Origin: Cytobacillus gottheilii
GTDB lineage: Bacteria; Bacillota; Bacilli; Bacillales; Cytobacillaceae
DNA length: 64,000 nucleotides
NCBI RefSeq assembly: GCF_900166665.1
Contig: NZ_LT800494.1
Location: 1,384,353 to 1,448,352 of the forward strand
Reading direction: 5' to 3'
Below, piece by piece: positions 39,511 to 44,512 of the stretch; positions within the stretch are counted from its first letter, which is position 1, and the number at the start of each line of letters is the position of its first letter. The notes beneath the pieces were generated by a model. It ran no database searches. It was given only the letters and a program-made list of their open reading frames with translations, and had not been told where the DNA came from. Both the position numbers and the translations under genes were made by a program.

Positions 39511-39854
39511 ACTGTTTTAATATACTATAATTGAGAGACGGTTACCCTCGAATTAATCGTCTCTTTCTTTTACTCAAGGACTATTGCGTAGTACAACGAT
39601 ATTGGGCAGTAAAAGACATCCACTTAGCGCTAACTTGGTGAATATATATACATAAACAAACAGATGCGATTCTTCAAGTGAGAAAGATCGCTATTTTGTT
39701 TATTCAAGTAACGGGGCGGTTAGTGAAAGAAGCCCGAACGCTAACAGTTATAAATTAACCGTTGAAATTATGGTGATTCCAGGTTAAAATTTGTATAAAT
39801 AGAAATATTTTGAAATGTATAAGATGAAAAGTTAGGATAGGAATTAGTAGTTAC
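39511..39854. other. intergenic region upstream of the T-box
   Basis: It contains a GAGACGGTTA/TAATCGTCTC hairpin (about 39534-39570) and the GATCGCTATTTTG...ACGGGGCGGTTAGTG module near 39685-39735. No gene is seen. Confidence 0.45.
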
Positions 39855-40050
39855 TTATCTCCCTGTAACAGAGAGCTGATGGGTGGTGGGAATCAGTACA
39901 AAGGTAAGAGCGAATTACCTCCTTGAGCTTTCTTTACGAACATAGAAGTAGTAAAGAACGGACGGACCGTTATTCGTAATGAGTGGAAGAGTTTTCTTCA
40001 ATAAGGGTGGTACCACGTTAACCACGTCCCTTTTAATAGGGGCGTGGTCT
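39855..40050 (+). promoter_or_regulatory. T-box leader ahead of a GNAT gene
   Basis: Stem I contains AACAGAGAGCTGATGGGTGG and AGCGAATTACCTCCTTGAGC. The T-box sequence GGGTGGTACCACG is at 40005-40017. The terminator ACCACGTCCC / GGGGCGTGGT with T run spans 40021-40053. The specifier is best read as ATT (Ile) followed by A, or else TTA (Leu). The bulge base T fits discriminator A in both tRNAs. Confidence 0.88.
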
Positions 40051-40083: not shown

Positions 40084-40560
40084 ATGGATATAACTATTCG
40101 ACATGCTGAGCAAAACGATTACGATTTATTGCTGCCTTTATTTAGTCAGGTTCATGAATTCCACGTTTTTGTAAGACCAGATTTGTACAAAGAGAATCCC
40201 ACTCCAGTCGAACAAGAGTTTTTTGAAAGCCAATTGATTGATAGTAAACAGCATATTTTTGTGGCTACCATATGCGCTGATATAGTTGGCGTTATAGTGA
40301 CAAAGGAAGAAGAAGTAACAGAAAATACTTTTGTTAAAGCGAGGAAAGTATTATATATAAAGAGTTTATGCGTTCTTGAAGCACATAGAAAGAAAGGTAT
40401 CGGAAAAAAACTAACTAAATACGTTTTGGATTTTGGTAGATGCCTCAAAATTGATAGTATTGAATTAGGAGTATCCGAGGAAAATAAATCTGCCATTGAA
40501 TTTTATAGGTCAATTGGGATGACAACGAAGAGTAGAAAAATGGAGATTATATTGAACTAA
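40084..40560 (+). CDS. GNAT acetyltransferase under T-box control
   Basis: A 158-residue GNAT protein. The acetyl-CoA loop is EAHRKKGIGKKLTKYVL near residue 101, and the C-terminal NKSAIEFYRSIGMT is typical. The ATG at 40084 begins MDITIRHAEQNDYD, 31 bases after the T-box terminator. T-box control implies that it is made when the matching tRNA is uncharged, so the substrate may be an amino acid, a precursor, or an inhibitor of the cognate synthetase. No other gene follows in the unit. Confidence 0.87.
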   Translation: MDITIRHAEQNDYDLLLPLFSQVHEFHVFVRPDLYKENPTPVEQEFFESQLIDSKQHIFVATICADIVGVIVTKEEEVTENTFVKARKVLYIKSLCVLEAHRKKGIGKKLTKYVLDFGRCLKIDSIELGVSEENKSAIEFYRSIGMTTKSRKMEIILN

Positions 40561-40624: not shown

Positions 40625-40654
40625 TTTACATTAATGACCTTGATGTCATATAAT
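40625..40654 (+). promoter_or_regulatory. sigma-A promoter of the leader-peptide/GNAT unit
   Basis: TTTACA at 40625-40630 and a perfect TATAAT at 40649-40654 are 18 bp apart, giving a start site near 40661. Confidence 0.78.
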
Positions 40655-40697
40655 TTAAAATGTTAAGTTAATTAACTGTGTAAGGGAGGGGATTATT

Positions 40698-40772
40698 ATG
40701 GCCAAATTTAAATTATATAGAATTAGACGAGTTACGATGGTTCCAAACCTCCCTTTAGTTTCAAGTATATAA
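40698..40772 (+). CDS. 24-residue leader peptide with +X+ motifs
   Basis: The peptide MAKFKLYRIRRVTMVPNLPL plus VSSI follows a strong AAGGGAGGGG site and lies between a good promoter and an attenuator hairpin. It contains two Lys/Arg-X-Lys/Arg triplets (KFK at residues 3-5, RIR at 8-10). This is the type of motif at which macrolide-bound ribosomes stall in leaders such as ErmDL. Codons 12-15 form one arm of a long RNA pairing with the terminator. Its role is therefore probably regulatory. Confidence 0.72.
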   Translation: MAKFKLYRIRRVTMVPNLPLVSSI

Positions 40773-40831
40773 TTAAGAGTATTTAATTATCTAAGAAGAC
40801 CATCGTAAATACGGAGGTCTTTATTTTATTT
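40732..40831 (+). promoter_or_regulatory. transcription attenuator with competing pairings
   Basis: The terminator hairpin is AAGACC (40796-40801) with GGTCTT (40816-40821), followed by TATTTTATTT. TTACGATGGT inside the leader ORF (40732-40741) is perfectly complementary over 10 bases to ACCATCGTAA (40799-40808), which includes part of the left terminator arm and its loop. ACCTCC (40747-40752) can pair with GGAGGT (40813-40818) in the right arm. Both long-range pairings would break the terminator, and a ribosome on the leader would decide which forms. Confidence 0.7.
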
Positions 40832-40882
40832 GTAAATTTAATTTTATCGGATTCCTATATTAAAAATAAGGAGCTAAAATGT

Positions 40883-41473
40883 ATGCAAATAAGAAATTAT
40901 GAAGCTGGAGATGAAATTGGTTGGGTTAGATGTAGAGCATTATCTTTTTTAGATACTGCTTACTTCGACAATGTATTGAAGAATAAAGAAATATACAATA
41001 ATCCAGCTATTGAATTAGTAGCTGTTGAAGACGAACAAATTGTAGGATTATTAGATATTGAATATGAAGTCCAAGAGAGGACCGTTTGTTCAAGAGGAAA
41101 TGGTCTCGGTGGAATGATATGGCATATTGCAGTTCATCCAGACTTTCAGAGGAGAGGTATAGGTACTCAATTATTAAATGCGGCAGAAAAAACAGCTAAA
41201 ATAAAAGGGTTAAATCGTTTTGAAGCTTGGACTAGAAATGATGAATGGGTAAGAAACTGGTATATAAAAAGTGGATTTGACGATGTAGAATCGTACTTGC
41301 AAGTGTATATTGATGGTAACAAGGAATTAAACGGAGTCATTAAAAGTGAAATTTCTAACCTATTTCCTGTTCAAGTATATGCTCATTACGTTGGAAATGA
41401 AAAAGAGTCGATAAAGGAGAGTTTTCAAAGAGTACATGAATGTATTTGTTATGAAAAAATGCTAAGAAAGTGA
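40883..41473 (+). CDS. GNAT acetyltransferase behind a leader-peptide attenuator
   Basis: A 196-residue GNAT protein with acetyl-CoA motif VHPDFQRRGIGTQLLNAAEK near residue 92 and the preceding strand GMIWHIAV. AAGGAGC precedes the ATG at 40883. An overlapping ATG at 40879 in another frame stops quickly. The C-terminal ~50 residues extend beyond the minimal fold. With an inducible-type leader upstream, an antibiotic- or toxin-acetylating role is a reasonable but unproven inference. Confidence 0.85.
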   Translation: MQIRNYEAGDEIGWVRCRALSFLDTAYFDNVLKNKEIYNNPAIELVAVEDEQIVGLLDIEYEVQERTVCSRGNGLGGMIWHIAVHPDFQRRGIGTQLLNAAEKTAKIKGLNRFEAWTRNDEWVRNWYIKSGFDDVESYLQVYIDGNKELNGVIKSEISNLFPVQVYAHYVGNEKESIKESFQRVHECICYEKMLRK

Positions 41474-44336: not shown

Positions 44337-44372
44337 CCTATTAAATAAATGAAAAATTGAATATTTTCTTCT

Positions 44373-44512
44373 TATCCAGAGAGGTGGAGGGACTGGCCCT
44401 TTGAAGCCTCGGCAGCAGGTTCGTATGAACACTGTGCCAATTCCAGCAAGCGTACTGCTTGAAAGATGAGAAGAGGGTTTTTAAAACTCTCTTCTTAGGA
44501 GGAGAGTTTTTT
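44373..44512 (+). promoter_or_regulatory. SAM-I riboswitch (S-box)
   Basis: The conserved S-box core is complete: CTTATCCAGAGAGGTGGAGG, then GACTGGCCCTTTGAAGCC, CGGCAGCAG, a GTGCCAATTCCAGCAAGCG stretch and GAAAGATGAGAAG. It is followed by a terminator, AACTCTC / GAGAGTT with six T, at 44485-44512. Low SAM should allow read-through into the two downstream genes. Confidence 0.95.

Follow-up and report, generated by a model that had tools for sequence, protein, structure and literature searches.

How is the GNAT acetyltransferase gene at this locus of Cytobacillus gottheilii controlled, given that a short open reading frame (ORF) and a terminator stand in front of it? We addressed this question by computational analysis of a 64,000-nucleotide stretch (the window) of the 4.78 Mb genome and by comparison with related loci in other genomes. 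The leader in the window is probably a ribosome-mediated transcription attenuator, which would induce a putative drug-modifying acetyltransferase when an inhibitor stalls early translation. A preliminary description of this DNA had listed a promoter, a 24-codon leader ORF with a ribosome binding site, a terminator and a GNAT gene, and all of these are present (Table 1). With its own promoter, a leader ORF with ribosome binding site and an intrinsic terminator before the gene, the locus has the sequence features of the attenuator class. Promoter-like sites of this quality occur 14 times in the surrounding 3-kb stretch (12.7 expected), so that the promoter match on its own is weak proof. In 9 of 20 leaders, the window's included, the -10 box of the best upstream promoter-like pair begins 24-30 nt before the modelled leader.

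Table 1. Features of the leader and the GNAT gene in the window.
Feature	Position	Strand	Details and basis
Promoter TTTACA-18-TATAAT	40625..40654	+	11/12 consensus matches
Shine-Dalgarno of leader ORF, segment 1 of switch	40682..40691	+	AAGGGAGGGG; 40682-40689 pairs with 40748-40755 in predicted fold
Leader ORF, 24 codons	40698..40772	+	Peptide MAKFKLYRIRRVTMVPNLPLVSSI, then stop; ORF list and sequence
Codons 5-7 AAA TTA TAT, conserved start-proximal segment, candidate stall site	40710..40718	+	Codon conservation
Antiterminator 5' strand, segment 2	40732..40742	+	11 pairs with 40798-40808
CCTCCCTT, predicted to sequester the leader's own Shine-Dalgarno	40748..40755	+	Predicted fold; compensatory change in L050
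Intrinsic terminator stem; left arm (from 40798) is segment 3	40795..40822	+	Shuffle test and pairing over 22 leaders
T-rich tail of terminator	40821..40831	+	Sequence
Shine-Dalgarno AAGGAG of GNAT gene	40868..40873	+	Sequence
GNAT N-acetyltransferase, 196 aa	40883..41473	+	Pfam Acetyltransf_7 E 5e-14; AlphaFold pLDDT 90.7, GNAT fold; 71 relatives

The leader has no Rfam match at gathering score, the only such matches in the window being a T-box and a SAM riboswitch; a T-box or other known Rfam family was therefore rejected as its identity. The T-box leader (39825-40034, 153 bits) lies just upstream, directly 5' of a second, different GNAT gene (40084-40560), an arrangement that to our knowledge is unusual. 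The SAM riboswitch aptamer is located at 44369-44472 (93.6 bits).

Within the leader RNA, the terminator stem with its T-rich tail has a calculated stability of -12.9 kcal/mol (z -3.9), which none of 200 shuffles reached. It was absent from the output of a simple consensus terminator scan of the locus, perhaps because of the internal mismatch in the stem. The complementarity of ten bases inside the ORF (TTACGATGGT, 40732-40741) to ACCATCGTAA (40799-40808), pointed out in the preliminary description, has no mismatch and reaches 11 pairs when a G-U is counted. The resulting antiterminator duplex (-15.0 kcal/mol) was equalled by none of 300 dinucleotide shuffles. A second long-range pairing proposed there, ACCTCC with GGAGGT, is indeed complementary, but the conserved partner of the pyrimidine run is the Shine-Dalgarno sequence of the leader itself: in the predicted fold, AAGGGAGG of the window pairs with CCTCCCTT.

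A pattern scan of the species-genome collection yielded 71 relatives of the GNAT, and the 300 bases upstream of each were read. The leader that recurs there consists of the Shine-Dalgarno AGGAGGGGATT, a short ORF, a (T)ACGATGGT-like strand, a CCCC-rich run and a terminator of the form AAGACCTTCGT...ACGA(A)GGTCTT. It precedes the GNAT gene in 10 of the 71 relatives, all ten being part of the training set of covariance model R1, which was built from 11 aligned leaders including that of the window. Applied to 193 genomes of the family, R1 gave 11 strong matches (82.7 bits or more), all before a GNAT gene. On reading, the 16 weaker matches (42.2 bits or less) were judged to be simple terminators or unrelated sequence and were discarded, among them L121, which overlaps the start of another acetyltransferase gene. 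Among 397 genomes of the order, R1 matched the window's own genome and 10 others, one of which (L134, 44.5 bits) was discarded as no more than a terminator.

Twelve of the leaders found by R1 lie outside the training set: six precede an intact GNAT gene, two stand beside a lost or decayed one, one precedes a kinase resembling AmiN/YerI and three precede an S9-type hydrolase gene. The leader is thus conserved beyond one genome, with 23 distinct examples in total: 17 before an intact GNAT gene, two (L128, L132) beside a lost or decayed one, one (L129) before an APH-fold kinase and three (L130, L131, L133, all from one genus) before an S9-type alpha/beta hydrolase. These leaders are related by descent, and their counts are therefore not independent. 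Searches with model R2 of 18, 34, 398 and 397 genomes, the two larger sets under stricter filters, brought no further gene type. A short ORF of 17-27 codons lies at the same place in all 20 intact leaders; counts of 20 leave out L133 (a near-copy of L131), L128 (GNAT lost) and L132 (GNAT decayed to a remnant, Shine-Dalgarno missing), and read L127 from its ATG rather than from the GTG one codon earlier. In the open-licence literature searched we found no description of this leader, and the excerpts of PMC13410324, PMC8632094 and PMC11109978 make no mention of it.

Other GNAT relatives carry other leaders. By eye, 8 of the 71 (L056, L063, L064, L066, L071, L077, L078 and L092) possess what we call a class B leader about 100 bases 5' of the GNAT gene. 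Its ORF contains GGGGT, CCC(C) follows downstream, and the ribosome binding site of the GNAT gene is nearby. The hosts are Sporosarcina, Lysinibacillus, Rummeliibacillus and Cytobacillus massiliigabonensis, and in L092 the ORF ends early at GGG TGA. From its sequence the class B leader looks like a translational attenuator; alignment and folding of the eight revealed no single common structure. Neither main leader type was found at 53 of the 71 relatives. In a 72-row tree of the GNAT, the class B leaders form a single clade, and the leader type of the window is scattered in the other large clade with 7 changes, so that gains and losses of the leader are not separable. The tree left out L051, L054, L058, L076, L087 and L107, which have a stop in the matched stretch, although the ORF of L107 itself is open. 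A third leader type was seen at the Cytobacillus GNAT genes L073 and L087, which are without the window's leader type: here a short ORF ends at the GNAT ribosome binding site. Read by eye, the ORFs of L087 and L073 begin MFTMNL and MFTMNQ, near the MFTFNF of the kinase leader, a likeness that is suggestive only; L073 shows no clear ribosome binding site.

We then asked which pairings of the window's leader type are conserved, running the covariation check over homologous loci that had been proposed in the preliminary description. Two off-state pairings are kept: the terminator stem, and the leader Shine-Dalgarno bound to the run close to the end of the ORF. In an alignment of 22 leaders fitted to the structure, 96.3% of the terminator cells are paired and 3 pairs have changed on both sides. 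Terminator and Shine-Dalgarno pairing together reach 93.3% paired cells with 4 double-change pairs in this structure-fitted alignment, as do 6 of 500 shuffles. On an independent MAFFT alignment of 11 leaders the values are 92.9%, two double-change pairs and 36 of 500 shuffles. Duplexes of the Shine-Dalgarno with its anti-Shine-Dalgarno run are stronger within than between leaders (22 leaders, permutation P=0.0023), but only 8 of 22 are individually better than 95% of shuffles (window: 16 of 300). A compensatory change is found in L050, which has GGAGGAGG with CCTTCTTC in place of the GGAGGGG with CCCCTTC of L027 and L038. The check thus supported both off-state pairings, but not the antiterminator helix, whose columns show no significant covariation (pairing equalled by 320 of 500 shuffles; within versus between leaders P=0.09), we think owing to a terminator left arm that hardly varies. 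Judged individually, 15 of 22 leaders have an antiterminator duplex better than 95% of their shuffles, with L104 at chance level (168 of 300). The window (ACCATC with GATGGT) and L047 (ACCTTC with GAAGGT) pair where the other 9 of 11 aligned leaders mismatch. Moreover, relative to the ORF the antiterminator strand is found in either of two reading frames, encoding Tyr-Asp-Gly and Thr-Met-Val types, which shows that selection keeps it as RNA.

To see how the ribosome could act on these structures, each transcript was folded to just past the left terminator arm, with the ribosome footprint barred from pairing. In model A (footprint edge +14), RNA on the 5' side of the ribosome is barred from pairing with RNA beyond it; in the stricter model B the Shine-Dalgarno may re-pair around the stalled ribosome. 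With bare RNA, model A predicted the antiterminator (P>0.3) in 4 of 20 leaders, leaving 16 off. With the P-site at codons 1-4 it was predicted in all 20, followed by 19, 18 and 18 at codons 5, 6 and 7, 12 at codon 8, 5 at codon 9, one at codon 10 and none at codons 12 and 14. A footprint edge of +11 lengthened the permissive range by about one codon. For the window leader, model A gave P 0.00 for bare RNA, 0.94 at codons 1-7, 0.78 at codon 8, 0.32 at codon 9 and 0 from codon 10. Switch-like behaviour was predicted for 16 of the 20 real leaders versus 9% of 400 shuffled versions. Under model B, P exceeded 0.3 at codons 1, 3, 4, 5 and 6 in 20, 15, 8, 8 and 8 of 20 leaders; in the window leader it was 0.94 at codons 1 and 3, 0.41 at codon 4 and 0.08 at codon 5, so that a stall at codon 4 or earlier would be required. 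Both models agree that bare RNA is mostly off, a very early stall on and a ribosome beyond the antiterminator strand off, but disagree on whether codons 5-7 fall inside the permissive range for most leaders. According to constrained folding, antiterminator and terminator would be mutually exclusive, and the position of the ribosome would decide whether the antiterminator is free or covered; the covariation of the antiterminator helix itself is not significant. As far as a model can tell, the direction of the switch, left unsettled by the preliminary description, would be on for early stalls and off for late positions.

The following course of events would fit these predictions. RNA polymerase would start about 35 bases 5' of the leader ORF. 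Without a ribosome, the leader Shine-Dalgarno would pair with the pyrimidine run near the ORF end, shutting in the antiterminator strand, and the terminator would halt transcription. During normal translation the ribosome would cover the antiterminator strand and the terminator would again form. If an inhibitor held the ribosome within about the first eight codons, the Shine-Dalgarno would be out of play and the antiterminator strand, from about ORF nucleotide 35, would be free to capture the left terminator arm, so that the GNAT gene would be transcribed. The enzyme would then acetylate and thereby disarm the inhibitor. While the parts of the locus, their conservation and the predicted switch are given by sequence and computation, we infer from them the translation of the leader, the stalling, an antibiotic as the signal and the substrate of the GNAT.

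Where would the ribosome stall? After the start, codons 5 and 7 are the most conserved among the 20 intact leaders (entropy 1.41 and 1.46), with codon 6 variable and codons 4, 6 and 8 at 2.78, 2.86 and 2.95. Codon 5 is Asn in 11, Lys in 6 and Gln in 3 leaders, its middle base being A in 20/20 and the codon AAN in 17/20. Codon 7 is ATA in 14 leaders, TAT in two (the window among them), CAG in two, ATG in one and AAG in one. The rows left out of these counts read CAA/CAG (L133), GAT/ATC (L128, from a TTG start) and AAA/ATA (L132) at codons 5/7; inclusion of L128 would therefore break the uniformity of codon 5. With the P-site at codon 5-7, the front edge of the ribosome would lie close to where the best antiterminator duplex begins, which is ORF nucleotide 27-37 for 19 of the 20 leaders and 21 for L047. 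From the sequences we suggest that codons 5-7 may be the stall site.

A leader of this kind could also act as a non-specific sensor of translation stress, induced like BmrB by many inhibitors of early elongation or first translocation and needing no particular peptide or codon as its signal. Under model A any ribosome position from codon 1 to codon 4 is enough in 20/20 leaders, under model B codon 1 is enough in 20/20, and the peptide sequences vary widely among leaders. Furthermore, the excerpt of PMC4191407 reports for BmrB of Bacillus subtilis an induction by ribosome-targeting antibiotics, strongest with lincomycin. However, a purely general sensor would have no need of codons 5 and 7 being far more conserved than codons 4, 6 and 8, and we regard this explanation as possible but doubtful.

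The preliminary description had favoured a macrolide-type leader, in which macrolide-bound ribosomes stall at KFK or RIR and thereby induce the GNAT. Both motifs are present in the window peptide, at codons 3-5 and 8-10. It had also been argued that a stall at KFK would free the antiterminator strand and that one at RIR would partly cover it. Both arguments fit the folding: with the P-site at codon 4 the antiterminator would be permitted (P 0.94 in model A, 0.41 in model B), and at codon 9 P is 0.32 or 0.78 depending on the footprint assumed. Across the family, however, Lys/Arg-X-Lys/Arg is found in just 3 of 20 intact leaders (twice in the window, KFK in L047 and KIK in L127) and is absent from the other 17, so that it is not the common signal and was rejected as such. 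In addition, one enzyme behind the leader is an AmiN/YerI-like kinase, which is not a known macrolide enzyme type. Macrolide-type stalling is thus very unlikely, and this part of the earlier interpretation is not supported. The other part, a leader-peptide attenuator controlling the GNAT, has good support from conservation, from the predicted switch and from the leaders that stand next to a GNAT gene now decayed or lost.

We consider it equally improbable that the leader is an amino-acid starvation attenuator reading codon 5 or 7 (Asn/Lys or AUA Ile). Such a reading would make use of AAN at codon 5 (17/20) and ATA at codon 7 (14/20), but the signal would be a single codon and not a run, the amino acid differs among leaders, and the downstream genes (GNAT, APH-fold kinase, S9-type hydrolase) are unlike genes of amino-acid biosynthesis. 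That there is no switch at all, with terminator and small ORF side by side and complementary by chance, is extremely improbable in view of the recurrence of the arrangement in 23 leaders and the excess of switch-like leaders over shuffles, even though the whole-leader fold in the window surpasses shuffles only slightly (z -2.0, 7 of 200) and antiterminator covariation is not significant.

For the preferred reading, an attenuator that responds to an inhibitor of early translation, we turned to the enzymes behind the leader. The window's GNAT scored below every curated NCBIfam cut-off among the best 25 of 28 families (AAC(6'), AAC(3), ArsN, PaiA and others), the best being rimI with 31.7 versus 86.4 needed. 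Fold comparison returned generic GNAT folds only, with tabtoxin-resistance and phosphinothricin enzymes among many at similar Z, and consequently no substrate was assigned from the fold. At E 1e-20, no GNAT relatives were found in 50,697 phage records, and 8 were found in 72,556 plasmid records. One plasmid copy (L165, 56%) is located on pBMV_2 of Priestia megaterium, typed as mobilizable, where it follows an ArsR-type regulator and an MFS transporter and adjoins an IS3 transposase; model R2 found no leader at this copy.

The L129 kinase is closest to the solved amicoumacin kinases AmiN/YerI over residues 3-298 of 357 (E 3.6e-29 and 5.1e-24; next APH enzyme 6.2e-8). It thus shows near full-length homology and is closer to them than to other solved APH enzymes, although the match is distant despite 296 residues at E 3.6e-29. 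According to excerpts of the respective reports, N-acetylation by AmiS abolishes amicoumacin A activity (PMC5055758), the kinase AmiN inactivates amicoumacin (PMC8835302), and paenilamicin is a codon-context-dependent ribosome inhibitor inactivated by N-acetylation (PMC11581978). Since an AmiN-like kinase and a GNAT share one leader type, an amicoumacin-like amine drug is our best lead for the inducer, with paenilamicin as an alternative of equal rank within the same idea. Against the amicoumacin link stand the distant homology and a hydrolase without known role. Furthermore, among 30 kinase loci examined (8 at at least 59% identity to L129, itself included) only that of L129 has the leader, so that the kinase link rests on one genome. 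At two kinase loci, L135 and L141, a short ORF lies within about 85 bases 5' of the kinase gene, and by reading, a purine run there can pair with a pyrimidine run that can alternatively pair with the kinase ribosome binding site. The short ORF of L135 follows the transcription attenuator, and the kinase gene there may therefore be controlled twice.

Tentatively, the whole leader family might be dedicated to sensing amine antibiotics of the amicoumacin or paenilamicin kind, with the small subunit as their target (at mRNA or tRNA), and would read codons around 5-7 rather than the nascent chain in the tunnel. Bacillaceae would then have put this one sensor in front of detoxifying enzymes of several unrelated kinds (acetyltransferase, kinase, hydrolase), with separate translational leaders for the same GNAT elsewhere. 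If the preferred attenuator reading is right, it would add a conserved self-sequestering attenuator family, of which our searches found no description, with a trigger unlike that of macrolide leaders, and would suggest that environmental Bacillaceae possess a family of resistance acetyltransferases without a name as yet. The leader would also be a ready reporter for finding the inducing antibiotic, and through the conserved codons 5-7 one could directly test for a codon-context rule of a ribosome inhibitor.

ErmDL and other Erm-type macrolide leaders are short ORFs in which translation arrest is thought to switch a resistance gene. The present leader resembles them in this respect, but 17 of its 20 examples are without Lys/Arg-X-Lys/Arg. 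The same likeness and the same difference apply to the hflX uORFC-6-1 motif, as far as the excerpt of PMC8632094 describes it. Amicoumacin resistance matches in that two of the enzyme types behind the leader correspond to two published disarming routes (kinase AmiN, acetyltransferase AmiS). However, the kinase match is distant and from one genome, AmiS is likened by description only, and the excerpts of PMC5055758 and PMC8835302 mention no leader. Likewise by description only, paenilamicin and PamZ offer a parallel, paenilamicin being a codon-context-dependent inhibitor that is inactivated by N-acetylation (excerpt of PMC11581978). In the BmrB-bmrCD attenuator of the related Bacillus subtilis, described in the excerpt of PMC4191407, a leader ORF is likewise combined with alternative RNA stems, and an antibiotic-stalled ribosome is said to favour the anti-terminator. 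Compared by description only, that system has a 53-codon leader and an ABC exporter, whereas the window leader involves its own Shine-Dalgarno and targets an acetyltransferase. By analogy, the leader may work like the BmrB and Erm-type attenuators, and it is set apart from known attenuators by its self-sequestering Shine-Dalgarno, its start-proximal conserved codons and the use of one leader in common by three enzyme types.
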